64,000 nt of DNA from Sphingomonas quercus (GTDB lineage Bacteria > Pseudomonadota > Alphaproteobacteria > Sphingomonadales > Sphingomonadaceae), in assembly GCF_018863195.1 (NCBI RefSeq), contig NZ_JAHKRT010000007.1, positions 1-64,000 on the forward strand, read 5' to 3'. Of the stretch, positions 36,042 to 53,067 are shown one piece after another. Under the pieces are notes generated by a model. The model ran no database searches and had not been told where the DNA came from. It worked only from the letters and a program-made list of their open reading frames with translations. The position numbers were made by a program, and so were the translations under genes. Positions within the stretch are counted from its first letter, which is position 1; each line of letters opens with the position of its first letter.

Positions 36042-36057
36042 ACACCAATGTACAATT
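36042..36057 (+). promoter_or_regulatory. cluster motif copy 1 (ACACCAATGTACAATT)
   Basis: First of the strong copies of a 16-base AT-rich motif. It ends 85 bases before the DJ-1/PfpI start and points toward it. The same 17-base string, GACACCAAyGTAyAATTG, recurs at the far end of the block (53051-53067) with two transitions. Confidence 0.55.
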
Positions 36058-36141
36058 GAGAAGGGGGATACCCAGAGGCACGCTGGCGGAGCGACGAAGC
36101 GCTAGGCAAGGCTGCTTCGCGCCAATTGCGAAAGGCCTCCC

Positions 36142-36834
36142 ATGAAAATCCTGATGATCCTCACCTCGCACGATCAGCTGGGGACAACCGGCCGGAAGAC
36201 TGGCTTTTGGCTGGAGGAGTTCGCAGCCCCCTATTTCACTTTCAAGGATGCAGGCGCCGAGGTCACTATCGCCTCACCCAATGGCGGGCAGCCACCGCTT
36301 GATCCCAAGAGCAACGAGCCTGAATTCCAGACCGACCTTACCCATCGTTTCGAGCGGGATGCGGATGCTCAGCGGGCCCTGGCAAACACGGTCGAGCTGC
36401 GAACTGTTTCGCAAGCCGATTTCGACACTGTCTTCTACACCGGCGGCCACGGCCCCATGTGGGATCTGGCGGAAGACGAGGACTCGATCCGGTTGATCGA
36501 GACCACGTTGGCGGCGAACAAGCCGCTGGCCCTTGTCTGCCATGCACCGGCCGCGCTGCATCGTGCCCGCGCCCCTGATGGCAACCCGCTTGTGAAAGGC
36601 AAGCGGGTCACCGGCTTCACCAACACCGAGGAGGAGGCGGTGCAGCTCACACACGTCGTCCCGTTCCTCGTCGAGACCGAACTTCGCCGCCTGGGCGGCA
36701 TTTTCTCCAAGGCAGACGACTGGCAACCCCATGTCGTGCGCGACGGGTTGCTGCTGACGGGCCAGAATCCGGCCTCTTCCGGACCAGCAGCGCAAGCGCT
36801 CCTCGACCTGTTCAAACCGATGATCAGCGTCTGA
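36142..36834 (+). CDS. DJ-1/PfpI family protein (type 1 glutamine amidotransferase-like, Hsp31-type)
   Basis: 230 residues. The nucleophile elbow is LALVCHAPAAL with C133 and H134; E25/E26 in GFWLEEFAAPY is the conserved acidic partner. TGGHGPMWDLAED and the N-terminal MKILMILTSHD complete the family pattern of Hsp31-like glyoxalase III/chaperone proteins. It may detoxify reactive aldehydes, which would fit a block full of epoxide and carbonyl enzymes. The first gene of the accessory block, preceded by motif copy 1 and followed by a hairpin. Confidence 0.9.
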   Translation: MKILMILTSHDQLGTTGRKTGFWLEEFAAPYFTFKDAGAEVTIASPNGGQPPLDPKSNEPEFQTDLTHRFERDADAQRALANTVELRTVSQADFDTVFYTGGHGPMWDLAEDEDSIRLIETTLAANKPLALVCHAPAALHRARAPDGNPLVKGKRVTGFTNTEEEAVQLTHVVPFLVETELRRLGGIFSKADDWQPHVVRDGLLLTGQNPASSGPAAQALLDLFKPMISV

Positions 36835-36844
36835 AACGATCGAC

Positions 36845-36874
36845 GCGAGCCGCGGACCTGTTCCCGCGGCTCGC
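36845..36874 (+). terminator. hairpin after the DJ-1/PfpI gene
   Basis: Perfect 11-base arms GCGAGCCGCGG (36845-36855) and CCGCGGCTCGC (36864-36874) with an 8-base loop, 10 bases after the stop codon. No T tract follows, so termination strength is uncertain. Confidence 0.6.
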
Positions 36875-37011
36875 GCGTCGGCCGCTTGCATTGATAGCGC
36901 GATTACGCTCGGCACCGACACTGACGGCTCGCATCATGCAAGGATGCATCGAGATCGGCAGAGTGGGGTGCCGCCTCCGACCAACATAATTGACCGTTGC
37001 GTGACGTGCCC

Positions 37012-37488
37012 TCAGTGGTTGCGCGGATCATCGGCAGGGTCGACATAGGCGATGCCGAGCGGGCCGCTACCGCTGACCTGGGTCACATAAGCACCCGACT
37101 TTGCCCAGTGAAAATGTGGCGTATCCTTTGGAAGGACAACGATGCTGCCGGGCCCGAACGCCTGAAGCTTCATGGGATCGAAGGTCTGGCCGAAGCCAAT
37201 ATAGAAGACTCCCGAGATCACCGTGTAAATCCTGTCCCCGGGATGAATATGGGGTTGCAATCTGACACCCTTGCCGACCCGCACGCGCACCACATAAGGA
37301 CCGGGCCGGCTGGGATTACCCACGACCGTAGCAATCTCGGCTCCTTTCGGGAATGCTGCGAAAGGCGCGAACGCGATCTCTTCACTATGGGCGCAGGCGA
37401 CGCGATGAGCCGAAAGCCCTTGCGGCGACGCCGGGCCCGGCGCGAGTGCGAGCGAGGACAGGCATAGGAAGGCAGTTTTACTATGCAT
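37012..37488 (-). CDS. exported cupin-domain protein
   Basis: 158 residues with a cleavable-looking signal peptide (MHSKTAFLCLSSLALAPGPA). The cupin barrel shows motif 1 as LQPHIHPGDRIYTVISGVFY and motif 2 as PKDTPHFHWAKSG, supplying several metal-binding His residues and a candidate Asp/Glu. Exported single-domain cupins may act as isomerases, dioxygenases or binding proteins; the activity is not known. Last gene of the probable minus-strand operon that begins with the exported crotonase. Confidence 0.85.
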   Translation of the reverse strand: MHSKTAFLCLSSLALAPGPASPQGLSAHRVACAHSEEIAFAPFAAFPKGAEIATVVGNPSRPGPYVVRVRVGKGVRLQPHIHPGDRIYTVISGVFYIGFGQTFDPMKLQAFGPGSIVVLPKDTPHFHWAKSGAYVTQVSGSGPLGIAYVDPADDPRNH

Positions 37489-37564
37489 TTCGTCCGTCCT
37501 TTGACCGATGTTGGGGAAGCGCGGGTCGTGTGGCCGCTTGGTTCAGTCGACAACGCCAACCGCA

Positions 37565-37774: not shown

Positions 37775-37783
37775 GGCACGCTT

Positions 37784-38581
37784 CTACAGCCCGCGGTAGC
37801 GCGGAGCGGGGATGGCGTGCGAAAGACCGGGGAACAGGTTTTTCCGGGCGTCCTCCAGCGCTTGCCAGTCGGCGAGATCGGGGAGTGAGGGGATGGTGAC
37901 GACTTCACCGGCATCAAGGCCGGCAAGTGCCGCATCCACCGCGTCTTCCGCAGACATGACGATGTCAGCCGGCAGGTGCTCGACTGAGGTCCCAGCGGTT
38001 CCCCAGAAGGCTGTGGCGACCGCACCCGGCAAGACCACCTGGATCCGAATGCCCTTGTCGGACAGCTCGTGGTGCAGCGATTGGCTGAATGCCAGCACGA
38101 ACGCCTTTGCCGCCCCATAGACGCCGTTCAGCAGCTCCGGTGCGACGGCGACGATCGACGCCATGTTGACGATCGTCCCGCTCCCGCGAGAGGCGAAGGC
38201 GGCCGCGGCTGCATAAGCGAGCCGCACCGGCGCAATCACGTCGAGCCGGATCAAGGCGTCCAATTGGTTGATATCCGACTGCAGGAGCGGGCCGACCGCG
38301 CCAATCCCCGCATTGTTGACGAGCATGGATATGGCGCGCTCCGAACAAAGAATTTGCTCGACAGAGTTCAGACCCTGAGCGGTCTGAAGGTCAGCAGCCA
38401 CGATGCGGATGGTGCGGTCTTCGCGTTTGGCGAGACTTGCTGCGCATTGCTCCAGCCGCTCGCGATCACGCCCAGCAAGGATGAGGTCATAGCCGCGCCG
38501 CGCGAGCCGATCTGCATAGATCGCCCCCATTCCGGACGACGCGCCGGTGACAAGAGCAGTTCCGGGATGAAAGGATGCCAT
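37784..38581 (-). CDS. short-chain dehydrogenase/reductase (SDR)
   Basis: 265 residues from the ATG at 38581, which follows GAGGAGACAAGGA. Cofactor motif TGASSGMGAIYADRLARRG, NNAGIGAVG, catalytic Ser in NMASIVAVAP, and an intact YGAAK catalytic motif. The basic residues after the first strands (AGRDRERL) favour NADP(H). A cytoplasmic oxidoreductase of unknown substrate. It lies 36 bases after the exported crotonase gene, in the same operon. Confidence 0.9.
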   Translation of the reverse strand: MASFHPGTALVTGASSGMGAIYADRLARRGYDLILAGRDRERLEQCAASLAKREDRTIRIVAADLQTAQGLNSVEQILCSERAISMLVNNAGIGAVGPLLQSDINQLDALIRLDVIAPVRLAYAAAAAFASRGSGTIVNMASIVAVAPELLNGVYGAAKAFVLAFSQSLHHELSDKGIRIQVVLPGAVATAFWGTAGTSVEHLPADIVMSAEDAVDAALAGLDAGEVVTIPSLPDLADWQALEDARKNLFPGLSHAIPAPRYRGL

Positions 38582-38617
38582 TCCTTGTCTCCTCAAGGAT
38601 TTGCGATAGCGATTGAC

Positions 38618-39586
38618 CTATTTGCGGGCGGCGCGCTGCTCGACGTCGCGGCTGGCCTGCCCGGTATATTGCGGAAGATCGACCTCGACTTCCGGCCTTG
38701 TCTGCAGGCCGAGCTTCATCAGCAGCTCAATTCGTTCTTGGGCGGCGGGGCGCTGCACCGAGCCGATGAAGCTACTCCATTCGGCTGCAAGGTCCTGGTC
38801 GGCGGGCAGGGTTGAGCGGTTTACCAACGCCTTGATCTCGCCGATCACCGTCCGGTCATAGGACGCGATGCGGCGCGCGAGATTGTCGATGAAGCCGTCG
38901 AGCTCGGTGTCCGGAAGCGCGCGGTTCACATAACCGTAGCGCTCGGCAAGGTCGCCGCTGATATCGTCGCCGCCGAGCAGGATCTCGAGTGCACGGCCCC
39001 GCCCCACCAAGCGGGGCAGGCGCGCCATCGGTCCACCACCCGGTACGAAGCCCGCGCCGACCTCGAACTGGGACAATCTCGCGTTCTCGCGGCTGGCGAA
39101 GCGCATGTCGCTGGCGAGCGACAGCTCGCTGCCGACGCCTGACGCGCGTCCCCGGATTTCTACGATCGAAACGACCGGGGCCTTGCTCAGGCGCACGAGA
39201 ATGTCGGTGAGCGCCGGGAGGCCGGTTCGCCCCGAGGGAATGCTCGTCGTGCGCGCCAGCGGCGGCGTGAAGTCATAATGGGTCAGGAAAAACCCGGGCA
39301 CGTTGCTTGCGAACACGACCACTTTGAGTTGAGGATCCTGTTCGATCGCGCGGATCACCTCCTCGAGCTGCGGAATCGACTCCGGCCCGAAAATGTTGAA
39401 CGGCGGATGATCGATCGAGACCCGCCAATAGGCGGGACTAACGCGCGTGATCCGGAATTGAACCCGGCCCGCTGCGTTGTCACCTTGCGCTGCCGAACCC
39501 GCCAGCCCGGCGCCGTTTCCCGGAGCGGCGCTCGCGGCAATCGGCATGACCCACAGCAGCGCGGCAGCAAAACGTTTCGAGAGCAT
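38618..39586 (-). CDS. crotonase (enoyl-CoA hydratase/isomerase) family protein with a Sec signal peptide
   Basis: 322 residues. A signal peptide, MLSKRFAAALLWVMPIAASA, precedes the crotonase fold. Both catalytic-type glutamates are kept: E154 in GVGSELSLASD and E175 in LSQFEVGAGFVPGGG. The start codon has GGAG 7 bases upstream, so the leader is probably real. CoA thioesters are not expected in the periplasm, so the protein may act on a non-CoA substrate or have been recruited for another reaction. It heads a four-gene operon, and the divergent neighbour is an OprB-type porin; cluster motif copy 2 lies 53 bases before the start. Confidence 0.88.
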   Translation of the reverse strand: MLSKRFAAALLWVMPIAASAAPGNGAGLAGSAAQGDNAAGRVQFRITRVSPAYWRVSIDHPPFNIFGPESIPQLEEVIRAIEQDPQLKVVVFASNVPGFFLTHYDFTPPLARTTSIPSGRTGLPALTDILVRLSKAPVVSIVEIRGRASGVGSELSLASDMRFASRENARLSQFEVGAGFVPGGGPMARLPRLVGRGRALEILLGGDDISGDLAERYGYVNRALPDTELDGFIDNLARRIASYDRTVIGEIKALVNRSTLPADQDLAAEWSSFIGSVQRPAAQERIELLMKLGLQTRPEVEVDLPQYTGQASRDVEQRAARK

Positions 39587-39638: not shown

Positions 39639-39654
39639 AATTATACATTGGTAT
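39639..39654 (-). promoter_or_regulatory. cluster motif copy 2 (ATACCAATGTATAATT on the minus strand)
   Basis: On the minus strand the sequence reads ATACCAATGTATAATT, 13 to 14 of 16 positions matching the copy at 36042. It faces the crotonase operon, 53 bases from its start codon. A shorter GTACAATTC piece on the same strand lies at 39612-39620. Confidence 0.55.
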
Positions 39655-39688
39655 GGCGAGCGTCGCGCGGCGATCATCGGGAAGTCTT

Positions 39689-39704
39689 ACGCCAACGTAT
39701 AATC
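39689..39704 (+). promoter_or_regulatory. cluster motif copy 3 (ACGCCAACGTATAATC)
   Basis: Plus-strand copy ending 82 bases before the OprB-type porin start. Copies 2 and 3 lie back to back in this one divergent intergenic region, each facing its own gene. Confidence 0.55.
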
Positions 39705-39785: not shown

Positions 39786-41198
39786 GTGCCCGGGATGCCG
39801 ACGAGATGGTGTGGCCCCCGCCGGTGCCATCTGCTGCTCACCGCGAGCTTTGTGCTCATACAGGCGCCCGTGCGGGAGGCATGCACGCAACCTGGCCCCA
39901 TTTCTGCGTCCGTTCTCAGGGAGGTCGAGGTTCCGGACCGCGCATTGCGACGTCGGAGCGGGGATCTCTCTCCCGCCAGCGAGCAAGGTGGTGCGCAACT
40001 TCCGCCGCCTCCCGGGGCGGCCGGGAACTGGTTCGGGCTGAAGCAATGGTTGGCGCAGGCTGGTGTCGGCCTAAGCGGACGCTACGTCTCGGAAGCCGCC
40101 TGGAACCCGACAGGTGGCCAGCGCCATGATGTAACGGAAGCCGGCCAGGTCGATCTAGGCCTGCACCTGGACCTCGGCCGGATCGCCCACACCGACGGGA
40201 CTTTCCAGGCCACGATTACCTCGCGCCGTGGGCATCAGCTGGATCGCCGGGCCGGACTAGGCACCCTGCAGGAGGTGCAGGAGATATATGGGCGAGGCCA
40301 GACATGGCGGCTTACGCAGTTCTGGTATGAGCAGCGACTTCTTTCGGGTACCGTCGACCTTAGGGCCGGGCGCACCTCACCGGGCGAGGATTTCGCCGCC
40401 TTCTCCTGCTCTTTCCAGAATTTGAGCTTCTGCGGCTCGCAACCGGGCAATGTGGCAGGTGCCTACTGGTACAATTGGCCGATAAGCCAATGGGGTGCGC
40501 GCTTGCGCGTCAGCTCAACGCGTGCCTACGTACAAATTGCAGTCTTCGAGGAAAACCCGCGCAATCTCGAGAAAGGCTTTAGCCTCGGCCATTTCGGCGG
40601 CGCGACCGGCGCGCTGATTCCCGCTGAGGTGGGCGTGACCACCGGCCGCAAGGAAGGGGGCCCGGTTGGATCGTACAAGGTCGGCGCGTGGCTGAGCACG
40701 TCCGACAAACCGGACCTCTACTATGATCGCGACCGCCAACCCCAGGTGCTTACTCGGCAGCCGGCGTTGCTCCATCGGGCAGGCTACGGCTTCTGGATCA
40801 ACGCCCAGCAGCAACTGACCGGCAGGTCTGCGGCTGGCGAATCCGTATCGGGGCTGACGGTTTTCCTCAACGCGACGATCACCGACAGGCGGACATCCTT
40901 GATCGACAATCAGGTCGCGGTCGGCGTCTTCGAGAAGCGAATCCTACCCTGGTTCACCGACGATGTGCTCGGCTTCGGTGTCGTGCGCACACACGTTGCA
41001 GGCAGGGTCGGCCGCTTAGAACGGTTGAAGGGCAAAGAGAAACAGTCTGCCGAATATGGGGCTGAACTCTATTACGGCTTTCATCCCTTTGGCTGGCTCG
41101 AGGTTCGTCCAAACCTGCAGTGGATTCACCACGCCGGCGGCTTCCGGAGCGCACGCGAGGTGGGCGTGATCGGCCTGAAGAGTGCGGTTAGGCTCTAG
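39786..41198 (+). CDS. OprB-type carbohydrate-selective porin
   Basis: About 470 residues, beginning at GTG 39786 or ATG 39795, with AGGAGAGG upstream. A short hydrophobic leader (LLLTASFVLIQAPV) precedes NWFGLKQWLAQAGVGLSGRYVSE and a series of amphipathic beta strands with aromatic-rich turns, for example FWYEQRLLSGTVDLRAGRTS, GFWINAQQQLTG and the C-terminal LEVRPNLQWIHHAGG. The layout matches OprB porins. It probably provides outer-membrane entry for the compound handled by the cluster. The leader is somewhat Arg/Cys-rich for a signal peptide, so the true start could be elsewhere. Confidence 0.85.
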   Translation: MPGMPTRWCGPRRCHLLLTASFVLIQAPVREACTQPGPISASVLREVEVPDRALRRRSGDLSPASEQGGAQLPPPPGAAGNWFGLKQWLAQAGVGLSGRYVSEAAWNPTGGQRHDVTEAGQVDLGLHLDLGRIAHTDGTFQATITSRRGHQLDRRAGLGTLQEVQEIYGRGQTWRLTQFWYEQRLLSGTVDLRAGRTSPGEDFAAFSCSFQNLSFCGSQPGNVAGAYWYNWPISQWGARLRVSSTRAYVQIAVFEENPRNLEKGFSLGHFGGATGALIPAEVGVTTGRKEGGPVGSYKVGAWLSTSDKPDLYYDRDRQPQVLTRQPALLHRAGYGFWINAQQQLTGRSAAGESVSGLTVFLNATITDRRTSLIDNQVAVGVFEKRILPWFTDDVLGFGVVRTHVAGRVGRLERLKGKEKQSAEYGAELYYGFHPFGWLEVRPNLQWIHHAGGFRSAREVGVIGLKSAVRL

Positions 41199-41264: not shown

Positions 41265-41897
41265 TCAACGCTTGGAGGGTGATAGCGCGCTGAGAATATC
41301 GGCCGTGGTCAGAATTGCATGGGCGAAAGTGGGCGCGCTCAGCTCGTGCGCTGCGTGCATCAGCTCCTGGCTATAAGCCGCCGTAGCATCGCGAACCAGC
41401 GTCACGTGATAGCCGAGTTCCATCGCATAGCGAGCGGTTGAATCGACGCAGGTGTTAGCGAGCAAACCGACGATGATCAGGTGCGTGATCCCATGCTGCC
41501 GCAATTGCTGATCGAGGTCGGTGTTGGCAAAGCCGCTCTGCGCCCAATGCTCCTTGGCCACGATATCGCCCGCCTGAGGCGCAAAGTCGGGATGCCAATC
41601 TCCGCCCCATTCTCCTCGCGCAAAGGTATGGCGCTGCATGATCCCCTGTTGCGTCGGGTTGGGATGAGCCCAGCTTTCATAATCGCCCGCCTCCCATCGT
41701 CTATGAGGGGCGATGAACAGCCTGATCCCCGCCGCCCGCACGGTTGCGACGATCGCGCGGAGATGGTCGAGCAGGTTGACCTGCTCAGCGACGGTTTTGA
41801 CTCTCGGCCAGGCCTTGCCGCCTTCCGACAGAAAGTCGTTATACGGATCGACGAACAGCAGCGCGGTCGATCGCGGCTCGTAGCTCGAAACGCCCAT
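41265..41897 (-). CDS. isochorismatase-like cysteine hydrolase
   Basis: 210 residues. The catalytic triad of the family is intact: D17 in LLFVDPYNDFLS, K115 in DIVAKEHW, and C150 in LLANTCVDSTARYA. No signal peptide. The family cleaves amides such as N-carbamoyl compounds, nicotinamide or ureidoacrylate, or vinyl ethers. The substrate is unknown here. It follows the SRPBCC-like gene by 23 bases, on the same strand. Confidence 0.9.
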   Translation of the reverse strand: MGVSSYEPRSTALLFVDPYNDFLSEGGKAWPRVKTVAEQVNLLDHLRAIVATVRAAGIRLFIAPHRRWEAGDYESWAHPNPTQQGIMQRHTFARGEWGGDWHPDFAPQAGDIVAKEHWAQSGFANTDLDQQLRQHGITHLIIVGLLANTCVDSTARYAMELGYHVTLVRDATAAYSQELMHAAHELSAPTFAHAILTTADILSALSPSKR

Positions 41898-41920: not shown

Positions 41921-42445
41921 TCAGGCGCGGAGCGCGAAGCGTTCGATGCTGGCGGCGAAAAGGGGGGTTTCGCCCTGATTGTGCGCGATCGACATCGGCT
42001 GACGCTGGGCGCGGAAAACCTCGAACGGAATCCCTTGCCGATCAAGCAGCGCCAGCATCTCACTGGTCGCGCTGGATCGCACATGATTGGTGAATTCACA
42101 TCGGTGCGCGTCGAGTTGTGCCACGCGCAGTTCCCATACAACGTTGATCGTGGTGCGCCCGTTCGGTGTGAAAACGTCCGAGACCGATTCGAGGATAAGA
42201 TGGTCGCGCTCTGCGAGCCTCTCGACATAATGTTGAACCATCGGGCTCCCGCCGATTACCTCGACGTTGATCGACATGCGCTTGCCGTCGGGCGAAGTTG
42301 TGGCGCCGGCCGCGACATGGGCAGGGGAGCAACCCTGATATTCGGCATCCGGGAGCGAGAAGGCCCAGGCGGGCAGGTCGATCCTCTCGATCGGCGCCTG
42401 GATGATGGCGCTGAAGCTGGAATCGACAATCTGTGCATCGCTCAT
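41921..42445 (-). CDS. SRPBCC/START-like protein of unknown function
   Basis: 174 residues, starting MSDAQIVDSSFSAIIQAPIE. The opening SFSAIIQAPIERIDLPAW, the central NVEVIGGSPMVQHYVERL and GRTTINVVWELRV, and DAHRCEFTNHVRS have the strand spacing of SRPBCC-type ligand-binding proteins. Similar proteins exist in other proteobacteria next to FixJ-linked gene sets, as far as I recall. The fold suggests binding of a hydrophobic small molecule. Head of a two-gene operon with the isochorismatase-like hydrolase. Confidence 0.65.
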   Translation of the reverse strand: MSDAQIVDSSFSAIIQAPIERIDLPAWAFSLPDAEYQGCSPAHVAAGATTSPDGKRMSINVEVIGGSPMVQHYVERLAERDHLILESVSDVFTPNGRTTINVVWELRVAQLDAHRCEFTNHVRSSATSEMLALLDRQGIPFEVFRAQRQPMSIAHNQGETPLFAASIERFALRA

Positions 42446-42506: not shown

Positions 42507-42522
42507 CAACTAATGTATAAGA
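42507..42522 (+). promoter_or_regulatory. cluster motif, weaker copy (CAACTAATGTATAAGA)
   Basis: Matches the core ACyAATGTAyAA of the strong copies (about 10 of 14 core positions). It lies in the divergent region between the SRPBCC-like operon (minus) and the epoxide hydrolase gene (plus). Confidence 0.35.
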
Positions 42523-42550: not shown

Positions 42551-42566
42551 TATACCATAGTATACC
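42551..42566. promoter_or_regulatory. near-palindrome TATACCATAGTATACC, motif-related
   Basis: Shares ACCA-N2-GTATA with the cluster motif and also resembles the element at 48587. It lies in the same divergent promoter region, about 137 bases before the epoxide hydrolase start. Confidence 0.3.
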
Positions 42567-42702
42567 GATACTATTGATCAGTTTCGTTTATCTATCATCT
42601 GCGGCAAGTCTCATGATCAGCGCATCTAGGGCGTCCAGCTTGGTCCGGCCGCAGCCGCGAGCTGGCACCCGGCTCCCTACAATTATCCATGAGGAGGCAG
42701 AT

Positions 42703-44013
42703 ATGGCATCGACGCAAGCAGCGATGGATCGTCGTGATTTTCTGAGTTCGAGTGCCATCGGCTCGGCAGGCCTGCTGCTACCGGTCGCCCCGGCGCGCGC
42801 CGCTGCCTATGGTCAAATCGCCACTGCGGTGGGCGGGGCGGGTGAAGTTCGTTCCTTCCGATATCGTGCGTCGGACGAGGACCTCTCCGATCTCAGACGT
42901 CGCATCGCGGCCACGCGCTGGCCGTCACAGGAGCTGGTCGACGACGCCTCCCAGGGGGTGCGGCTCAGGACAATGCGTCAGCTCGCTGAATATTGGGCGG
43001 TCGATTACGATTGGCGCAAGCTTGAGACGCGGCTCAATCGCTATCCACAGTTCGTCACCAATATCGATGGTGTCGACATTCACTTCATACACGTTCGTTC
43101 GAAGCATGAGAAGGCGCTGCCAGTGATCATCACCCATGGCTGGCCAGGTTCGATCATCGAGCAGATGAAGGTGATCGGGCCGTTGAGCGATCCTACCGCA
43201 TTCGGCGGCACGCCGTCCGATGCCTTCGACGTCGTGATCCCGTCGCTGCCGGGCCACGGTTTTTCGGCCAAACCTGACCAGCTCGGCTGGGATCCAATCC
43301 GGATCGCCAAGGCGTGGGCCGAGCTCATGAGCAGGCTGGGATACAGAGCCTATGTTGCGCAGGGCGGTGATTGGGGCAACGCGGTGACTGAGCAGATGGC
43401 ATTGCTGACCCCGCCCGGCCTGATCGCGGTTCACACCAATATGCCCGCCACCGTACCGACGGAGATCGCGACCGCGCTTTCCTCCGGCGGGGCGGCGCCG
43501 GTCGGGCTCTCCGCTGAGGAGAAGAATGCGTATGACCAGCTCGACACCTTCTACAAGCACGGCCTCGGCTACGCTCAGGAAATGGCGAACCGCCCTCAAA
43601 CGCTGTACGCACTGGACGATTCCCCGATTGGTCTCGCAGCCTGGATGCTGGATCACGACGCGCGTAGTGAGGAGCTGATCGCGCGCGTGTTCGGCGGCCA
43701 GAGCGAGGGGCTCACGCGCGACGACATTCTCGACAATATCACCCTCTATTGGCTGACGCGCAGCGCCGTGTCCTCGGCGCGGCTCTATTGGGAAAGCAAG
43801 CTTGCTTTCTTCGCGCCAAAGGGTGTCACGTTGCCGATCGGTGTGAGCGCCTTCCCAGACGAAATCTACACCGCGCCGCGGAGCTGGGCCGAAAAGGCTT
43901 ACCCAAAACTTATCCACTATAATCGTCTTCAAAAAGGCGGGCATTTTGCCGCCTGGGAACAACCTCGCATTTTTGCCGAGGAACTGCGCGCCACGTTTCG
44001 TTCCGTTCGCTGA
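42703..44013 (+). CDS. Tat-exported epoxide hydrolase (alpha/beta fold, EHN domain)
   Basis: 436 residues from ATG 42703, set by GAGGAGG 5 bases upstream. The twin-arginine leader is MDRRDFLSSSAIGSAGLLL followed by APARAAA. The epoxide hydrolase N-terminal domain covers about residues 48-155 (FRYRASDEDLSDLRRRIAATRW). The alpha/beta core has the oxyanion motif HGWPGS, nucleophile D223 in AQGGDWGN, and catalytic H414 in KGGHFAAWEQP. It should add water to an epoxide in the periplasm. A strong T-tailed terminator follows. Confidence 0.9.
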   Translation: MASTQAAMDRRDFLSSSAIGSAGLLLPVAPARAAAYGQIATAVGGAGEVRSFRYRASDEDLSDLRRRIAATRWPSQELVDDASQGVRLRTMRQLAEYWAVDYDWRKLETRLNRYPQFVTNIDGVDIHFIHVRSKHEKALPVIITHGWPGSIIEQMKVIGPLSDPTAFGGTPSDAFDVVIPSLPGHGFSAKPDQLGWDPIRIAKAWAELMSRLGYRAYVAQGGDWGNAVTEQMALLTPPGLIAVHTNMPATVPTEIATALSSGGAAPVGLSAEEKNAYDQLDTFYKHGLGYAQEMANRPQTLYALDDSPIGLAAWMLDHDARSEELIARVFGGQSEGLTRDDILDNITLYWLTRSAVSSARLYWESKLAFFAPKGVTLPIGVSAFPDEIYTAPRSWAEKAYPKLIHYNRLQKGGHFAAWEQPRIFAEELRATFRSVR

Positions 44014-45893: not shown

Positions 45894-46370
45894 CTAAATG
45901 ATTTCGTGGACGTCGTAGATCGGCCCGGCGGGGGTGCGATGGCCGATGCCAATGGCGAGTGCGCGGTTGAGCCATTCGTACCGCGGATCGGAGGTCGCGA
46001 AGGCGGGCAGGATCCGGAAGTAATATTCGGACGGCGCCACCGCCGCGCCACGGGCCAGCCGCTCCATCACTGCCGCGGGGCCGTAGCGAAGGCCGCTATA
46101 GCTCATCGCGATGAGTGCGTCGTCGTCTGTTCGCAGCACGATCCGCGCATCGAGCACGATAGCGCCGTCGCCACGTTCGGTCTGCCAGTCGGCGCCGCCC
46201 GGAAGGATTGCACCACGCAAGCGCCTTCCCTCGAAGCGACCGCCGGGCAACGTGCCGATCCGCCGCGCTGCACCCACGGGACCTCCCACGATCTGAAGGG
46301 GATCGACCAGCACTTCCGCGACGAAGAGCGGTCGCGTCCGCATTGCCGGCAGCCTGACACTCTCAACCAT
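45894..46370 (-). CDS. DUF3237 domain protein
   Basis: 158 residues from ATG 46370, which has a strong GGGGGAGGTGG ribosome site. The DUF3237 signature is GGRFEGRRLRGAILPGGADW, then GAIVLDARIVLRTDDDALIAM and EYYFRILPAFATSDPRYEWLN. The domain forms a beta-barrel-like fold of unknown function and is often found near aromatic or terpene degradation genes. It lies 37 bases before the VOC gene. A possible longer, frame-shifted membrane N-terminus is described separately. Confidence 0.85.
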   Translation of the reverse strand: MVESVRLPAMRTRPLFVAEVLVDPLQIVGGPVGAARRIGTLPGGRFEGRRLRGAILPGGADWQTERGDGAIVLDARIVLRTDDDALIAMSYSGLRYGPAAVMERLARGAAVAPSEYYFRILPAFATSDPRYEWLNRALAIGIGHRTPAGPIYDVHEII

Positions 46371-46524
46371 GCGACCACCTCCCCCCGGCGAGCCGTGGCC
46401 GAATTGTGCGGCCAAGAGTGCAACCACGCCTGCAGCGCGAGGGGCGCGCGTGAACCCCCGCCACCGGTGCCCGATTAATCGGCAACGCGATGCCGAGGAA
46501 AGCGAGGTAGTCGGCGAACGCCAT
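46363..46524 (-). other. possible small or frameshifted membrane ORF between tautomerase and DUF3237 genes
   Basis: An ATG at 46524, 7 bases after the tautomerase stop, opens a 53-codon frame starting MAFADYLAFLGIALP. The rest of this frame is Arg-rich and unconvincing. If one shifts frame near 46485 the sequence instead continues hydrophobically (LIGHRWRGFTRAPRAAGVV, then ALLAAQFGHG) and runs into the DUF3237 frame. It could be a decayed or mis-sequenced two-helix protein. It overlaps the DUF3237 start by 8 bases. Confidence 0.25.
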
Positions 46525-46531: not shown

Positions 46532-46780
46532 CTAGCTCGCGGAGCTAGCCGCATGTTCGGCGAGCTGCTTGCGGTATTCGAGGACTGGCAAGCCGCCCCA
46601 GCCCCAGTCCTCAAGTGCCACCTCGCGGATCACGACCCAGGTCCAGTCGGCAGGCTTGCCGAGCACATCTGACAGGACCTGACTGACGCCCTTGAAGATT
46701 GCCGCCTTCTGCTCAGGGGTCACGCCGGCGACGTCCGGCTCGGTGCCCTCGCGGGTAAGTTCGACCGTAACAAATGGCAT
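46532..46780 (-). CDS. 4-oxalocrotonate tautomerase family protein
   Basis: 82 residues with the N-terminal Pro exposed after Met removal (MPFVTVELTREG), the catalytic base of the superfamily. VTPEQKAAIFKGVSQVLSDVLGK and TWVVIREVALEDWGWGG are the other conserved blocks. Enzymes of this group tautomerise keto-enol compounds or dehalogenate small acids. It lies 18 bases after the SDR gene in the same operon. Confidence 0.88.
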   Translation of the reverse strand: MPFVTVELTREGTEPDVAGVTPEQKAAIFKGVSQVLSDVLGKPADWTWVVIREVALEDWGWGGLPVLEYRKQLAEHAASSAS

Positions 46781-46798: not shown

Positions 46799-47509
46799 TT
46801 AGTGACCGGCCGCCTGGCCGCCGTCGACGTGAAGCGTCTCGCCAGTGACAAAAGGCGCGCCCTCGAGATAGAGCACTGCCTCGACGACGTCGCCGATCTC
46901 TCCCATATGCCCAAGGGGGTGGAGTGCACCGAGCGCCTCATGAGTGTCGGCCGGATGCATCGGCGTCTTGATCACGCCCGGCGCCACGGCATTCACCCTG
47001 ATGCCACGACTGGCATACTCGATCGCAAGGCTGCGCGTGGATGCGTCAATGCCGCCTTTTGAAAGAGCCGCGAGCGCCGAGGGCACCGCTGACAATGATT
47101 GGCGCACGAGCGCGGTCGTGATGCTCACGACATGGCCGGCTCCCTGCTTTTCCATTGCGTGGATCGCCGCCTGGGTGATGAAAAAGAAGCCGTTCAGGTT
47201 GGTGGCGATCACCTGTGCGTATTGCTCGGCGCTGTAGCGGGTAAAAGGTGAGGCAACAAAGATGCCGGCGTTGTTGATCAGCGTGTCCACCCTGCCGAAC
47301 TTGTCCAGCGCCTCGGTGATCACTTTGGCGCCGGTTGCTGGGTCGCCAATATCGCCTGCTATTGCCAGCATGTCGGGATTGTCGGTCGGCTGAATCGATC
47401 GCGACGTGGCAACCACGCGAAACCCGCGCGCGAGATAGGCGTCGCGCAGACCCGCGCCGATGCCCTGCGAAGCCCCCGTGATGACGGCGACCTTCTTGTC
47501 GTTGTTCAT
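46799..47509 (-). CDS. SDR family protein lacking the catalytic tyrosine
   Basis: 236 residues. Cofactor motif TGASQGIGAGLRDAYLARG, and NNAGIFVASPF. The normal YxxxK motif is replaced by A147-A-L-S-K151, so the catalytic Tyr is Ala. The Ser region VVSITTALV is also unusual. The conserved C-terminal GGQAAGH-type end is present (FVTGETLHVDGG). Members without Tyr may be binding proteins or use another residue. First gene of the five-gene operon SDR, tautomerase, DUF3237, VOC, hydrolase. Confidence 0.88.
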   Translation of the reverse strand: MNNDKKVAVITGASQGIGAGLRDAYLARGFRVVATSRSIQPTDNPDMLAIAGDIGDPATGAKVITEALDKFGRVDTLINNAGIFVASPFTRYSAEQYAQVIATNLNGFFFITQAAIHAMEKQGAGHVVSITTALVRQSLSAVPSALAALSKGGIDASTRSLAIEYASRGIRVNAVAPGVIKTPMHPADTHEALGALHPLGHMGEIGDVVEAVLYLEGAPFVTGETLHVDGGQAAGH

Positions 47510-47843
47510 GAGCGAATCCTTTGCTGTTCTGAGCGAGAAGGGCGGCGTTGAAAGTTCAGCGCCGGGTCAGATGAGTTGGCGCAGGGAGCATCGCCGCCCG
47601 CGCTGGTTGGGCAGGGCAGGCCGCGCGATGTGCCAGGCGGCGCAGAGCCGCCGTCGGCATCACACCCCGCTTGGCTTACGACGCGCGCCCTGGAGACTCC
47701 CGAGAAGCCGATGTTGAATAGCTGCCGGTTGGCATGCAGGTTTCTCCTCGAGAGCGGGCGGGGCCGAACGGTCTGAAGATGACGTGGGCCGCTGTCGGTC
47801 GAAATTGCACTTTCGTATGGTGATACTTTGGTGTGGACCCAGG
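47510..47843. other. 334-base intergenic region upstream of the SDR operon
   Basis: No gene supported on either strand. It holds a motif-related element on the minus strand at 47819-47834 (ACACCAAAGTATCACC, 12 of 16 matches to the cluster motif), about 310 bases before the SDR start. The preceding part is unremarkable GC-rich sequence. Confidence 0.4.
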
Positions 47844-48512
47844 CTATTCGGATGGCCCGGAAGACAGTTGTCCGCAAATCGGCGTCGCCAGGGGCAGATC
47901 GACGCGTGCCTGGCTCCCTGCCGGGCCTAGGCGCCAAGTCGCGTGTCCCCCCAATTCTGCGGCAAGGGACTGAACCAAATGACGCCCCCGGCCCGGTCTG
48001 GCCGCGGGCGAGGCCTGGCCGCTATCGCAGACGCTGCAGGTAAGGCCGCCGTCCGCGAGCGTGAGGTCCACGGTGATCAGGCCGCCCGGCTTGAGTTGTG
48101 CGTGTCGTGCAGCATTCCGGACCAGCTCCATGACGATCAGAGCCACACGCCACGCCTCGCCGCTTGCCAGCTGGACCTCGTCCGAGCGCAGCAACAACCG
48201 CACCCCGCGCCGCGCCAGCACGGTGGCCGAAAAGCTTTGGCAGATGCGCGCGAGATACCCCGGCAGGCTGACTGGATGGGCGGACGTTGGAGGAAGCAAG
48301 GCCCGGTGTAATTCCGCGTGACCTGACAGGCCCAGGGCGGCTCGCTCGATGCTGGCCCGCTCCGCGCTCGACGGGGCGGTCCTGGCGGCGAGCGAGAGTG
48401 TCGAAATGGCCTCTGCGAATTCGTTGATCACGCGGTGGCCGATTTCCTCGACGAGCATCAGTGCAAGCGGCCCGCATTCCCGCCTCGATGATATTTGCAT
48501 TCCCTCGCTCAC
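47844..48512 (-). CDS. soluble histidine kinase of HWE/HisKA_2 type, without sensor domain
   Basis: 222 residues. GTG 48512 was chosen because AGGAGGA lies at ideal distance (6 bases); an ATG four codons later and an upstream frame to 48662 are alternatives. The phosphoacceptor region is LVEEIGHRVINEFAEAIS, His at about residue 26. The ATPase domain has WRVALIVMELVRNAARHAQ (N box), CSVCDSGQ and GRGRHLVQSLAAELGG. No membrane segment or sensory domain is visible, so it needs a partner or senses internally. It could supply phosphate to the cluster's FixJ regulator or receiver. Confidence 0.8.
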   Translation of the reverse strand: MSEGMQISSRRECGPLALMLVEEIGHRVINEFAEAISTLSLAARTAPSSAERASIERAALGLSGHAELHRALLPPTSAHPVSLPGYLARICQSFSATVLARRGVRLLLRSDEVQLASGEAWRVALIVMELVRNAARHAQLKPGGLITVDLTLADGGLTCSVCDSGQASPAARPGRGRHLVQSLAAELGGHATWRLGPAGSQARVDLPLATPICGQLSSGPSE

Positions 48513-48907
48513 GGCAGTCCTCCTCTGGCGCGATTGCAAGCAGCGCTTGATGGGCCTGCCTTGGCGGACACCCGCGATCCATTGCTCCAAGGTATGACTA
48601 TACCAAGGTGATAAGAGTTCTGGTTCGAGCCGGCCGACGTTTGCCGCGGTCGTCTGAAGCACCGGCCGACACGATGGTTTAATGGACCAGCCGCCGGCCC
48701 ACGTTTAAGTCGCGTTCGTCAGGCCGCACAGCCGCTACCCCCGACGAGACCGGATGCTGATTCCATGCATCTCATTTTGTTGATTGGCATGCTCAGCCTA
48801 GGCGCAAATTGTGCTTGGCCGGCCCGCTGGCTGCTGGCGGACGCCGACGGCGTCTGCCATTCGCGCTGGTGGAGGCGGGCTTGCCGTATCTAGCGAGGAG
48901 CAGGAGC
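48513..48907. other. 395-base divergent region between the soluble kinase and the Tat alpha/beta hydrolase
   Basis: No convincing gene. It contains the inverted element at 48587-48608 facing the kinase gene. The half nearer the hydrolase shows only GC-rich sequence and a good AGGAG ribosome site just before the hydrolase start. Confidence 0.4.
48587..48608. promoter_or_regulatory. inverted element CCAAGGTAT-GACT-ATACCAAGG, motif-related
   Basis: Imperfect palindrome with GGTAT/ATACC inner arms. It resembles TATACCATAGTATACC at 42551 and the ACCAA...GTAT core of the cluster motif. It lies 75 bases before the soluble kinase start on the minus strand. Confidence 0.35.
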
Positions 48908-49948
48908 ATGATACAGCCGAACGGGCGCGACACGATTGATAGCTCCAGGCGGGCGTTGGTGGCTGGTGGCGCCGCCAGCCTGTTCCTACCTTTTGCAGGC
49001 TCAGTTCTGGCGGCAGCGCCCGCTCAAGGCGAAGGCAATGATGCGCACCTCGGCAGCCTGCCGTTGCGGCAAATCGCTGCGGGGGATCTCGATTGTGGCT
49101 ATGCGGACCTTGGGCCTCGGCGCGGCCCGGTTGCGCTTCTACTCCACGGCTGGCCCTATGACATTCACAGCTTCGCCGAGGTGGCACCGCTGCTGGTGAC
49201 CGCCGGATACCGCGTGATCATCCCGTATTTGCGGGGCTACGGCACCACCCGCTTCCGCTCCGCTGATATCTTGCGCAATGGCCAGCAGGCCGCGCTGGCC
49301 GCGGACGTTGTCGCTTTGCTCGACGCTTTAGGCATTGGGGAGGCGGTCGTCGCAGGGTTCGACTGGGGCGCGCGCACCGCGAACATCCTCGCGGCGCTCT
49401 GGCCGGACCGGTGCCGCGCGCACGTCTCGGTGAGTGGCTATCTGATCGGTAGCCAAAAGGTGAACGCGCTGCCGCTTGCGCCGGAGGCTGAGCTGGCTTG
49501 GTGGTATCAATTCTACTTTGCGACGGAGCGCGGCCGCCTGGGCTATGACCGCAACCGCGTCACCTTCAATCGGCTGATCTGGCGGCTCGCTTCACCGCGT
49601 TGGGATTTTTCAGATGCGGTCTATCAGCGTACTGCCGCGGCCTTCGATAATCCTGATCACGTCGCGATCGTGATCGACAACTATCGTTGGCGGCTCGGCC
49701 TTGCCGCCGGCGAGGCGCGATACGACCGCCTCGAGCAGCGTCTCGCCGAGGCGCCGCCGATCGCGGTGCCTACGATCACGCTTGAGGGCGACGCCAACGG
49801 TGCGCCCCATCCTCCAGCGGCGGCTTATGCCGCCAAATTTACCGGGCGGTACGCTCATCGTGAAATCACCGGGGGCATTGGCCATAATCTCCCTCAGGAG
49901 GCGCCGCGCGCCTTCGCGGAGGCGATTGTGGACGTGACACGCCTTTGA
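48908..49948 (+). CDS. Tat-exported alpha/beta hydrolase with Asp nucleophile
   Basis: 346 residues from ATG 48908, preceded by GAGGAGCAGGAG. A twin-arginine leader (SSRRALVAGGAASLFLPFA) is followed by the hydrolase domain: HGWPYDIHSF oxyanion loop, nucleophile D152 in AGFDWGARTANI, and a C-terminal His in GGIGHNLPQEAP. The Asp nucleophile groups it with epoxide hydrolases and dehalogenases. It is the third exported enzyme of this type in the block, so the cluster may handle several epoxide or halide steps, or this one may have another role. Confidence 0.87.
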   Translation: MIQPNGRDTIDSSRRALVAGGAASLFLPFAGSVLAAAPAQGEGNDAHLGSLPLRQIAAGDLDCGYADLGPRRGPVALLLHGWPYDIHSFAEVAPLLVTAGYRVIIPYLRGYGTTRFRSADILRNGQQAALAADVVALLDALGIGEAVVAGFDWGARTANILAALWPDRCRAHVSVSGYLIGSQKVNALPLAPEAELAWWYQFYFATERGRLGYDRNRVTFNRLIWRLASPRWDFSDAVYQRTAAAFDNPDHVAIVIDNYRWRLGLAAGEARYDRLEQRLAEAPPIAVPTITLEGDANGAPHPPAAAYAAKFTGRYAHREITGGIGHNLPQEAPRAFAEAIVDVTRL

Positions 49949-50180
49949 TGCAGCGCCGCTGGCCGGCTCGGCGGCTTGTCGAACACGCGGAAGTCCGTGC
50001 TCCCGCCGGGTGGCAGGCCGTACAAGTGAGGTGCGGCTGCGCGTCCGTTCGCATGCTCGCGCAACTCATTCATCGTTGGCGCAGCCTTACCGCCGCACGC
50101 CAAGTCACTGCTTGGCACCCGATGCCGTTACGATCGGGTATCCTGGCAGCAGGCGCTGAGCCCTCCGTTTTGCCGCCGGC

Positions 50181-51764
50181 TCATGCCAGCGGGAGAGCGA
50201 ATTCCAAGACCGCGCCCTTGCTTTGATTACGCAACACGGAGATCCGCCCGTCATGGGCCTCAATGATCGACCGGCAAATCGAGAGCCCCATGCCCATACC
50301 GTCGGCCTTGGTTGAGAACAGCGGATTGAAGATGTGCTCTATATCTTGTGGCGCCACGCCTTTTCCGGTGTCCGACACTGTCACCACCAGCTCGCCTGTG
50401 TCCCGGGTCGCGGAGCCGATCGTGAGTTTTCGTGGAGGCGGCTCGTCGAGCATCGCGTCGATGGCATTGGTGCAGAGGTTCAGCACGACCTGCTGCAACT
50501 GCGTCCGATCGCCATATACCGTTGCCGCGCGGGCTCGCATCTCGTCCTCAACGATGACACCGTGGCGCTGAAGGTCGTCACGCAGCAGGGCGACCGTCTC
50601 GCGTACCAGGGCATTGAGATCCAGCAATGTCCGGATTCTCGCCCCTTTCTTGAAGTTCGCCCGGATGCTGTCGATTACCTCCGCCGCGCGATGCCCATCG
50701 GCAGCCACTTGCTTGATGTCCGCTTTGGCCTTTTCGAGATCGGGCGTATCTCGTTCAAGGCGACGGAGGCCTGCCTCGGCGCGGGTTATCATCGCGGAAA
50801 GCGGCTGTTTGACGTCATGCGAGATCATCGCCGCCACGGCGTCGCCGGTGACAAGACGTGCCTCCCGCTCGAGATATTGGGCCCGCACCGCTTGCATGAC
50901 CCGCGCATATAGCTTCGAGAATTCAAACAGCAGCACCACCAGAACCAGGGTGTTGGCTGCAAGGTTCATGAGGATGACTGTGTACCAACCAACGCTGAAG
51001 CGGGCGGGGGCCGGGTGAAAGCCGAGTGGCACGCCGGTGAGGTGGACAAGCGCCACAACCATCAGCCACAGGCCGAGAATGGTGTTCCGCCTGAACCAGA
51101 GCAAGGCGAGTGCCACGGCGTAGGAGCAAGCGATCGGGATGCCGGCGTACAGCGGCCATGTCATCGAGAACCGACGGGTGTCGTCAATCACGATCGGGAG
51201 CGCACCGCGATGGTGAATGCAAACGAAGGCCGCGAGGAGCACCAGTCCGGTGGTCACCAGCATGCTTACGGGCATCACAGTACGGGCCATTCGCTGAGCG
51301 AAGGGAGGCTGCTCGCTTCGGTCGGCGAGCGCAAATGCGGACAGGAAGAGCGCGAGTCCGCAATGACGCACTATGTACAGCCAGGGTGTGCTTTGCAGAT
51401 TACCCGCCAGGCTCCCGGATGAGAAAACATCCGGAAACGACAATGTGTAGGGTATCAGCATCAACGCGGCGAACAGATAGCCGTTCGCTACGATCAGCAT
51501 CGCACGCGTCCGCAGAATGGAGAATTGTGCGAACAGCAAGCACGCCGTGATGAGATCGTTTAGGAAAATCGCGGTCACGTAGAACGGGATGAACGGCTGG
51601 AGAGGGTAGAGTTGAAGGCCCGAAAGAGGTTTCGCACAGACGAATATGACGAGCAAAATCAAGGGTACGACGCGCGTTGCTAGTAAGACTTGCATGGGCG
51701 TCGGCGACGCCCGTGTGAGCGTCAGGAAATCATCGTTAGATCCAGAAGGGGAGCCTCTCTGCAT
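50181..51764 (-). CDS. membrane histidine kinase with MASE4-like sensor
   Basis: 527 residues from ATG 51764; the frame extends further with no Met. The first 285 residues contain about eight hydrophobic helices with the pattern of MASE-type integral sensor domains (LQPFIPFYVTAIFLNDLITA, PWLYIVRHCGLALFLSAFAL). The kinase part has AAMISHDVKQPLSAMITRAE with phosphoacceptor H316, an N box in VVLNLCTNAIDAML, and G boxes in VSDTGKGVAPQDIEHIF and GMGMGLSICRSIIEAH. It lies downstream of a receiver gene and the FixJ-type gene on the same strand, so it is the likely partner of one of them. Confidence 0.88.
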   Translation of the reverse strand: MQRGSPSGSNDDFLTLTRASPTPMQVLLATRVVPLILLVIFVCAKPLSGLQLYPLQPFIPFYVTAIFLNDLITACLLFAQFSILRTRAMLIVANGYLFAALMLIPYTLSFPDVFSSGSLAGNLQSTPWLYIVRHCGLALFLSAFALADRSEQPPFAQRMARTVMPVSMLVTTGLVLLAAFVCIHHRGALPIVIDDTRRFSMTWPLYAGIPIACSYAVALALLWFRRNTILGLWLMVVALVHLTGVPLGFHPAPARFSVGWYTVILMNLAANTLVLVVLLFEFSKLYARVMQAVRAQYLEREARLVTGDAVAAMISHDVKQPLSAMITRAEAGLRRLERDTPDLEKAKADIKQVAADGHRAAEVIDSIRANFKKGARIRTLLDLNALVRETVALLRDDLQRHGVIVEDEMRARAATVYGDRTQLQQVVLNLCTNAIDAMLDEPPPRKLTIGSATRDTGELVVTVSDTGKGVAPQDIEHIFNPLFSTKADGMGMGLSICRSIIEAHDGRISVLRNQSKGAVLEFALPLA

Positions 51765-51872
51765 CGCGGGGCTGTTCAAACTTGGCCAGGGCGGACGCAG
51801 GACAGGACGAATTTTTTCGGCTGAAAGGCCCAAACAGGCGTGCCATGCGATTGACTGTATCTCACGGTCATC

Positions 51873-52253
51873 TCAAGATCCTTGCCCACCGGAGGTCGCC
51901 CTCTCCAAACAGCGGATCAAAGCGCCGGCCTCGAAGGGCTTCCTAAGCAGGCAAACCGCGCCCATCGCCGCCACCCGTGCCTCAAGCCCCGGCTCCGCGC
52001 GCGCCGTAATCAAGATCACAGAAGCTCGATAGTCTTCGAATCGAAGCTTCTGTATCAAATCGACACCGCTCATTCCGGGCATATGAATATCAGTAATGAT
52101 GCAATCGAGAGATCGCGCGCCGTCAAATCCGAGGAACGCCTCCGCCGACGCGAAGCCATAGGCCTCATAGTCCAGCGAGCTGAGTAGTTCTAGGAGCGCG
52201 GCACGAAAAAGCCCATCATCGTCTATAACTGCTATAACCGCGTCTCGTGACAC
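51873..52253 (-). CDS. stand-alone response regulator receiver domain
   Basis: 126 residues, a single CheY-like domain. Acidic pocket D11/D12, phosphorylation site D55 in CIITDIHMPGMSG, T83 and K105 in LLRKPF. There is no output domain. It lies between the FixJ-type gene (86 bases upstream) and the membrane kinase gene (about 108 bases downstream), so the three probably form one unit; it may act as a phosphate sink or relay. Confidence 0.9.
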   Translation of the reverse strand: MSRDAVIAVIDDDGLFRAALLELLSSLDYEAYGFASAEAFLGFDGARSLDCIITDIHMPGMSGVDLIQKLRFEDYRASVILITARAEPGLEARVAAMGAVCLLRKPFEAGALIRCLERATSGGQGS

Positions 52254-52339
52254 CGAACTTCCTTAGGTTTGCGCGAATGCCCGTCAGTAGCCTGACCAGT
52301 GGCTCCGGCACTCGTTATCTATCGCGAGAAGCGACGCGG

Positions 52340-52993
52340 CTAGACCCACTTCGCCGCCGGTTCAACCGCCTGCCTTTGCCTTAGCTTGTCCGCCATTCTG
52401 ACAAGTTCGGGGAGCGTGCGCGCACCCATTTTGCGCATCGCCGCACCACGGTGGACCTTGACCGTGATCTCGCTGATGCCAAGATCGCCTGCCGCTTGCT
52501 TGTTCAGCTTGCCGGCAGTGACGAGTAGCATCACCTCCTTCTCACGCGGAGACAGGCGCGCGAACCTTGCCTCAAGTGCGCTTTCGCCCTCATCGAGCGC
52601 TCGCCGGCGTTGGTCCCGCTCGATTGCGGCCGCTACAGCGTCCAGCAGTTCCTGATCGCGGAAAGGCTTCGGCAGAAAGTCGAGCGCGCCATGCTTCATC
52701 GCTTTCACCGACATGGGTATATCTCCATAGCCGGTCATGACGATTACGGGCAGGCGCACGCCCAGCTCCCCGAGCGCAGCCTGGAATTCGATCCCGTCGG
52801 CATCGGGCAAGCGGACGTCGATCAGGATACAGCCCGGCGGATGGTCGCGCTCTGACTGAAGGAACTCGCTCGCCGAACCATAGGTCTTCGCGGTCAGCCC
52901 GACCGAATCGAACAGGCTCTCGAGCGCGCCGCGAATCGACGGATCATCGTCGATCACGTGAATGACCGATGTGTCATGGGGTTGAACGGCCAT
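52340..52993 (-). CDS. FixJ-type response regulator (receiver plus LuxR/GerE HTH)
   Basis: 217 residues. The receiver has D15-D17, phosphorylation site D59 in CILIDVRLPDADG, T87 in VIVMTGYGDIPMSVKAMKHG and K109 in FLPKPF. The DNA-binding domain is LSPREKEVMLLVTAGKLNKQ with the recognition helix region SEITVKVHRGAAMRKMG. The FixJ/TodT/NodW group binds partly palindromic AT-rich sites, so this is the best candidate to read the ACACCAAyGTAyAATT motif. A copy of the motif lies 59 bases before its own start, which suggests autoregulation. Confidence 0.92.
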   Translation of the reverse strand: MAVQPHDTSVIHVIDDDPSIRGALESLFDSVGLTAKTYGSASEFLQSERDHPPGCILIDVRLPDADGIEFQAALGELGVRLPVIVMTGYGDIPMSVKAMKHGALDFLPKPFRDQELLDAVAAAIERDQRRRALDEGESALEARFARLSPREKEVMLLVTAGKLNKQAAGDLGISEITVKVHRGAAMRKMGARTLPELVRMADKLRQRQAVEPAAKWV

Positions 52994-53051
52994 GCGCGGA
53001 TCCTGCTACCTCTTGGCGCAGCCTAGCACCTCAAGGCAATGCTTGTGGATG

Positions 53052-53067
53052 ACACCAACGTATAATT
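53052..53067 (+). promoter_or_regulatory. cluster motif copy 4 (ACACCAACGTATAATT)
   Basis: Best match to copy 1: GACACCAAyGTAyAATTG is shared over 17 bases with two transitions. It lies 59 bases before the FixJ-type gene but in the opposite reading direction, and marks the right edge of the accessory block. Confidence 0.55.

Follow-up and report, generated by a model that had tools for sequence, protein, structure and literature searches.

A predicted operator for a StyR-like FixJ-type response regulator in a low-GC island of Sphingomonas quercus

Results

The window analysed here, i.e. a 64,000-nucleotide stretch of Sphingomonas quercus (RefSeq assembly GCF_018863195.1, contig NZ_JAHKRT010000007.1, positions 1 to 64,000), contains an approximately 18-kb island of lower guanine-plus-cytosine (GC) content (about 36-54 kb; 62.6 vs 68.3% for the rest of the window) in which a short motif recurs upstream of genes. 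We consider it very probable that this motif is the operator of the island's own StyR/TodT-like FixJ-type response regulator, with binding predicted from sequence. Behind this reading stand sites that are near-unique in the genome, a linkage of the motif to fixJ across the Proteobacteria, its conservation before orthologous genes, and a -10-like signal that follows it at a fixed spacing.

The searches used a 16-mer pattern, ACACCAAYGTAYAATT, a 12-bp core, AYACCANNGTAY, and a looser family consensus, AHACCNNNGTATRATT. At up to three mismatches the 16-mer matches the window exactly four times, at 36042 on the plus strand (no mismatch), 39639 on the minus strand (one), 39689 plus (two) and 53052 plus (none), compared with a mean of 0.07 in shuffled windows; these are precisely the strong copies listed in an initial annotation of this DNA. 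Block-only shuffles were added because of the lower GC content of the block, and give a mean of 0.003 at up to two mismatches and 0.073 at up to three (maximum of one in 300); shuffles of the approximately 3.1 kb of intergenic DNA in the block give 0.003 copies at up to two mismatches vs the four observed. The distances from motif to start codon, 84 bp for DJ-1, 52 for the crotonase, 81 for the porin (GTG start) and 58 for FixJ, agree with the 53-85 bases given in the initial annotation.

Across the 3,636,518-base genome, the 16-mer at up to two mismatches is matched solely at the four window sites; at three mismatches there are seven further matches, with three for a reversed control pattern at up to three. 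The exact core occurs six times, five of them in the block (36042, 39643 minus, 42552, 47823 minus and 53052), and the sixth, at C9:79568, lies within an open reading frame (ORF) of 694 amino acids. By both 16-mer and core, then, the motif is not common outside the block; the initial annotation had said that a common motif there would tell against its reading. Two of the weaker relatives named there, at 42551 (really 42552, ATACCATAGTAT) and 47819 minus (ACACCAAAGTAT), are exact cores, whereas those at 42507 and 48587 (where the core relative lies at 48600) are indistinguishable from background, which the core at up to one mismatch reaches with 113 genome matches vs 129 for the control. The 48600 relative falls within the small kinase gene if its ORF is taken from the GTG start, yet lies upstream of the first ATG (48500).

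The motif, which had been described as AT-rich, is neither simply AT-rich nor simply palindromic. Its form is ATAC-N4-GTAT, in which the right half extends to GTATRATT; the column consensus of 72 non-redundant sites is A-H-A-C-C-n-n-n-G-T-A-T-R-A-T-T.

A linkage with fixJ is evident in other genomes. Loci were chosen by FixJ sequence alone, as the best 80 of at least 589 confirmed FixJ relatives, and approximately 300 bp around the matched fixJ segment were scanned, with 1630 distant 600-bp segments and column-permuted matrices as controls; the 80 loci are partly non-independent, many being Bradyrhizobium and some possibly of a training genus. A matrix of just the four window copies, as the initial annotation had proposed for homologous loci, scores at least 15 near fixJ in 18 of the 80 loci (12 of the 1630 distant segments; 200 permuted matrices, mean 0.57, maximum 6). 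Training on 15 sites, taken from the window and other genomes, gives a matrix that reaches at least 14 in 49/80 (distant segments, 18/1630; permuted, mean 1.05, maximum 15) and at least 18 in 29/80 (distant, 4/1630; permuted, mean 0.15, maximum 4). The site-bearing loci span Alpha-, Beta- and Gammaproteobacteria, e.g. Herbaspirillum (L240), Duganella (L282) and Luteibacter (L246).

The arrangement of these sites is also regular. In a recount with the window scanned whole, 50 loci bear a site, the best one being downstream of fixJ in 40 and upstream in 10. Of the downstream sites, 37/40 are forward, and 39/40 lie between fixJ and a receiver ORF that ends within 900 bp after the site; 8 of the 10 upstream sites face away from fixJ.

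It is fixJ that the motif accompanies, rather than the kinase, since a match to nearly the full length of the window's MASE4 kinase is listed in only two of the 80 FixJ loci (L206, L284). The MASE4 kinase as an element travelling with the motif was rejected on this count, and reading by a FixJ-type regulator, the initial proposal, is well supported by a motif that accompanies fixJ across classes with different kinases. In the first set of 20 MASE4 loci, drawn from the class sample, five carry a 52-55% FixJ homologue next to the kinase (L066, L068, L069, L070, L078); motif copies at up to three mismatches lie beside the operon in four of these five, and in L068 a weaker copy, scoring 15.3 with the window matrix, follows closely on fixJ. 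Among 57 MASE4 loci, 26 list no FixJ homologue (L143, L144 and L170, the last with a 43% FixJ, counted apart), and one of these 26 scores above 15.0 with the window matrix (L071, 19.5).

The MASE4 part of the kinase was matched in 18 of the 385 genomes of the class sample at 1e-6 (own genome included), further in 6/18 genomes at 1e-20, and by alignments at 1e-30 in 33/82, 1/25 and 13/398 genomes (the last including the own genome). With the whole kinase, 22 of 118 genomes were matched at 1e-30, the own genome included; outside the own genome no match in these 118 starts before residue 231 of 550, and among the matches listed none before 293; the MASE4 part therefore goes unmatched in those genomes.

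Orthologous promoters were compared in three islands, those of B. niftali (L206/L325/L337), B. sp. 164 (L207/L326/L336) and G1174 (L330/L338; genus by inference), which share with the window FixJ (64-67%), the receiver (54-58%), the kinase (45-46%), DJ-1 (67-69%), the cupin, the crotonase and the epoxide hydrolase. The form AYATCAAYGTATGAGT precedes DJ-1 in 3/3 of these Bradyrhizobium islands (scores 15.8-17.4) and AYACTCTTGTATARTT stands before the receiver in 3/3 (13.2-20.5), and the sites are thus conserved before orthologous genes, where their absence had been put forward as a ground for giving up the idea. The DJ-1-type form also precedes a 53% glyoxalase in 2/2; no site stands before the second, 48% glyoxalase of L336. 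Variants precede the porin in one of the two islands that list one (14.0; OprB of L330) and fixJ in one of the three (14.3; L207). The Bradyrhizobium crotonase, which sits in a run with hydrolases, lacks its own site. Around Bradyrhizobium kinases, 15 of 20 stretches list no FixJ match, and one of these (L326) has fixJ just outside. A second kinase copy, at G1174:C1:3312637-3314157, has seven internal stop codons.

The 72 non-redundant sites also reveal a promoter geometry. Over the 70 bases after the motif, only A39 and T43 exceed 0.25 bits. A and T at these places are the best-conserved letters of the -10 element TANNNT, here at 38-43. Both are present in 11 of the 31 non-redundant forward sites after fixJ; the next best offset gives 5, and 1000 shuffles reach at most 7 at any offset. 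In the window, three of the seven sites (36042, 39639 minus, 47803 minus) have A39/T43 vs a block background of 3.8%; those at 39689, 42552, 47819 and 53052 do not. With a -10-like signal at this fixed spacing, the ATAC-N4-GTAT dyad would be centred near -43 and the 3' end of the motif would lie on the -35 region, as expected of class II activation.

The reader proposed for these sites contains a receiver domain (PF00072, 2.6e-25) and a LuxR/GerE helix-turn-helix (HTH) domain (PF00196, 7e-19). Its nearest solved relative is StyR (1YIO, 2.6e-51), followed by FixJ (5XSO, 1.1e-38), and its score with the canonical FixJ model NF006900 of NCBIfam, 206.7 bits, is below the cut-off of 255.

Table 1. 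Features of the low-GC island and motif sites, in window coordinates
Feature	Position	Strand	Remark
site 1	36042..36057	+	upstream of DJ-1; A39/T43 of -10 present (CACGCT)
site 2	39639..39654	-	upstream of crotonase; A39/T43 present (AATTCT), or TACAAT 3 bp closer
site 3	39689..39704	+	upstream of OprB porin; without A39/T43; possible TAATGA 3 bp closer
site 4	42552..42567	+	exact core ATACCATAGTAT; between isochorismatase operon (-) and epoxide hydrolase (+); A39, not T43
sites 5a/5b (47803, 47819)	47803..47834	-	tandem, about 294-310 bp upstream of SDR; A39/T43 at 47803 (CATCTT), not at 47819
weak relative ATACCAAGGTGA	48600..48611	+	between small kinase (-) and alpha/beta hydrolase (+); not above background
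site 6	53052..53067	+	58 bp upstream of fixJ, facing away from fixJ
tRNA-Thr(CGT)	35615..35690	+	left edge of low-GC island
DJ-1/PfpI protein	36142..36834	+	Pfam
cupin (Cupin_7/Cupin_2, below cut-off)	37012..37488	-	Pfam
short-chain dehydrogenase	37784..38596	-	Pfam
crotonase-fold protein	38618..39586	-	signal-peptide-like (Sec-like) N-terminus by eye
OprB porin	39786..41198	+	Pfam
isochorismatase-family hydrolase	41265..41897	-	Pfam
ORF without Pfam match	41921..42445	-	
epoxide hydrolase (EHN)	42703..44013	+	Tat-like N-terminus by eye
alpha/beta hydrolase	44294..45226	-	Pfam
glyoxalase/VOC protein	45233..45850	-	Pfam
DUF3237 protein	45894..46427	-	Pfam
82-amino-acid ORF	46532..46780	-	begins 18 bp past SDR stop, before DUF3237
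SDR	46799..47509	-	sites 5a/5b in its upstream region
HisKA_2/HATPase_c_2 kinase-like protein	47844..48500	-	coordinates from first ATG
alpha/beta hydrolase	48908..49948	+	from an ATG; Tat-like N-terminus by eye
MASE4 histidine kinase	50181..51833	-	MASE4-HisKA-HATPase; proposed partner kinase
stand-alone receiver (REC)	51873..52253	-	
FixJ/StyR-type response regulator (REC + GerE HTH)	52340..52993	-	proposed reader of sites

The genes of the island (Table 1) have a third-position GC of 0.61-0.79 vs 0.87 in a neighbouring ORF of 1553 amino acids, presumably an NAD-glutamate dehydrogenase. The 25-bp end of the tRNA-Thr at the left edge has no repeat in the window, an integration repeat was accordingly rejected, and the right boundary of the island is unmarked. 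The 82-amino-acid ORF, putatively tautomerase-like, lies 18 bp after the SDR stop, so the genes for SDR, tautomerase, DUF3237 protein, glyoxalase and hydrolase may form a single operon behind the 47803/47819 sites. By eye, the crotonase (Sec-like) and two hydrolases (Tat-like) look like an exported enzyme set, which is odd for a CoA-type fold. Isochorismatase-family hydrolases with 57-64% identity to that of the window occur near fixJ/receiver genes in several genera (L216, L218, L221, L223, L224, L227, L237).

A symmetric form, ATACCAAGGTAT, lies near histidine kinase/fixJ genes in L146-L159 (14/14) and in L213, L220, L229, L232, L252 and L265, and L213 and L265 carry the GTATRATT form besides. 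It is possibly a sister operator.

Discussion

From these observations we infer binding, activation, a signal and feedback as follows. The MASE4 membrane kinase would sense a signal, for which literature searches gave no lead, and phosphorylate the regulator, whose dimer would bind ATAC-N4-GTAT (right half GTATRATT), a dyad centred near -43 and overlapping the -35 region. The bound regulator would then activate sigma-70-type promoters of the island hydrolases, DJ-1, SDR and porin in class II fashion, as StyR does, and a receiver under operator control in relatives would constitute a FixT-like modulator loop.

The initial annotation had also taken the block for one regulon with an autoregulated FixJ. 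The regulon stands in good part, as sites precede DJ-1, the crotonase, the porin, the isochorismatase/epoxide-hydrolase pair and the SDR gene, but for the histidine kinase-like gene and the alpha/beta hydrolase at 48.9 kb there is no more than a weak relative. Autoregulation is not borne out and is the weakest part of the reading, because the site at 53052 faces away from fixJ; an extended -10, TGCTAGGCT, lies at 53028-53020 toward fixJ and would serve it only in a mirror reading of that site.

Several observations weigh against the operator reading. The 53052 site, besides its orientation, has no -10 in its own direction, and the window has no site (score of at least 8) between fixJ and the receiver, the usual place in relatives. 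Strict TANNNT (T38-A39-T43) is found at 38-43 in only 2/31 sites. Near fixJ, 27 of the 80 FixJ loci score below 12, and L071 (19.5), L143 (20.0) and L144 (17.7) have a good site with no FixJ homologue in the examined stretch. The looser consensus AHACCNNNGTATRATT has six genome matches at up to one mismatch, three in the block and three outside, and 43 at up to two vs 13 for the control. In favour of the operator reading, helix residues, counted over the 80 FixJ loci minus four that score 12-14 and one without a readable helix, vary with the presence of a site: Leu180 is found in 0/49 loci with a site and 6/26 without (Fisher p 0.001), and Gly183 in 46/49 and 18/26, respectively (p 0.007). Neither p value is corrected for relatedness, and the association of these residues with site absence is confounded by it.

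If another regulator read the sites, fixJ would merely be one of its targets. The candidate at hand is a second FixJ-type regulator of this genome, 49% identical and beside a kinase (G000:C12:64820-65422), and related regulators can share operators; the 3.6-kb stretch around its gene, however, has no site at a score of at least 11, which also favours reading by the window FixJ. In many genera, moreover, the motif accompanies homologues of the window fixJ, and the island brings its own fixJ copy. We regard this explanation as unlikely. We give slightly less credence still to a sigma-70 or alternative-sigma core promoter in which an internal TATAAT is the -10. TATAAT does occur within the right half of several copies, and ACACCAACG-TATAAT resembles a -10 context, yet conservation of A1, A3 and C4 in the left half roughly equals that of the right half, the two halves are spaced as a dyad, and the -10-like signal is found beyond the motif, at 38-43; the conserved left half and this signal together disfavour the internal TATAAT. 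Moreover, no column upstream of the motif reaches the 0.25-bit cut-off, hence there is no -35 in the right place, and near-confinement to a single island is not what a core promoter would show.

That the copies are a repeat duplicated inside an AT-richer island, with no regulatory role, is highly improbable. The lower GC content of the island would suit such a repeat, but by eye no extended similarity is seen between the sequences flanking the four copies, the block-only and intergenic-only shuffles disfavour an AT-rich origin, and the sites occur in other bacterial classes.

The operator reading is best compared with known FixJ-type systems. With StyS/StyR and TodS/TodT (TutB, TmoT) the window system shares an N4-spaced dyad with AC..GT flanking the centre. 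It differs in its MASE4 membrane kinase and in its genes, which are hydrolases, DJ-1, SDRs and a porin; targets of the StyR/TodT type are aromatic-ring oxygenase pathways. The proposed site near -43 resembles that of StyR-P, which activates from about -40 (PMC2442086, in part). StyR/TodT-like regulators have boxes of the form ATAAACN4GTTTAT (PMC5874301, in part), which the window family AHACCNNNGTATRATT does not match: the N4 centre is kept and the half-sites differ, AHAC and GTATRATT here vs ATAAAC and GTTTAT there. Of the StyR residues that putatively contact DNA, Lys175, Val176 and His179 (PMC5874301, in part), the first two are kept and His179 corresponds to Gly183 in the window regulator (own numbering match from the alignment). 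The regulator would work like StyR, yet we do not place it in StyR/TodT, because the operator and one recognition residue were tested and differ. TdiR-like anaerobic toluene regulators also have a NarL/FixJ-type HTH and a proposed palindromic operator upstream of -35, of another sequence (GGTGTTCGCACC), and the StyR recognition residues, two of three kept here, are not conserved there (PMC5874301, in part).

The FixL-FixJ-FixT system of Rhizobiales and Caulobacter likewise combines a FixJ-type regulator with a stand-alone receiver. Canonical FixJ sites (TAAGTAATTTCCCTTA or GTAMGTAG; PMC4999443, in part) differ from the window motif, and the kinase of the window has no PAS match in the Pfam scan (MASE4-HisKA-HATPase), unlike FixL, which is a PAS-type kinase. 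FixT is a feedback inhibitor of FixL, and fixT is induced by FixLJ (PMC7078487, in part), much as the operator of relatives precedes the receiver gene. This placement before the receiver gene in many relatives, though not in the window, suggests by analogy a FixT-like modulator loop. Receiver homologues, taken as ORFs of up to 260 amino acids that do not align to all of FixJ, number 88 in 85 of 157 loci (two genomes being counted twice in the set), and Asp12, Asp55 and Lys105 are kept in 89/89 aligned receivers, that of the window included. The window receiver has three cysteines (51, 101, 115), conserved in 84, 49 and 76 of the 89, whereas Caulobacter FixT has a four-cysteine Fe-S motif.

Together, these results lead us to favour, by a modest margin of belief, a broader picture: a large, apparently undescribed StyR-like FixJ subfamily of Alpha-, Beta- and Gammaproteobacteria would share the operator code AHACCNNNGTATRATT at about -43, which would drive an adjoining stand-alone receiver, as an inbuilt modulator loop whatever the kinase, along with interchangeable cargo, e.g. 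exported hydrolases and DJ-1/SDR enzymes. A literature search that mostly lacked subscription journals found no paper with a title on this FixJ-receiver group, and the motif strings as text queries returned only papers unrelated by title. What results for a widespread, apparently uncharacterised two-component group is a predicted operator sequence with its promoter geometry and target genes, and target genes in other genomes can be proposed by the pattern; if the broader picture is true, the operator could predict targets in any genome with such a fixJ-receiver pair. Further, the recurring order of fixJ, operator and receiver suggests that, regardless of the signal sensed by the kinase, a receiver-only modulator under its own regulator, known from FixLJ-FixT, may be general here.

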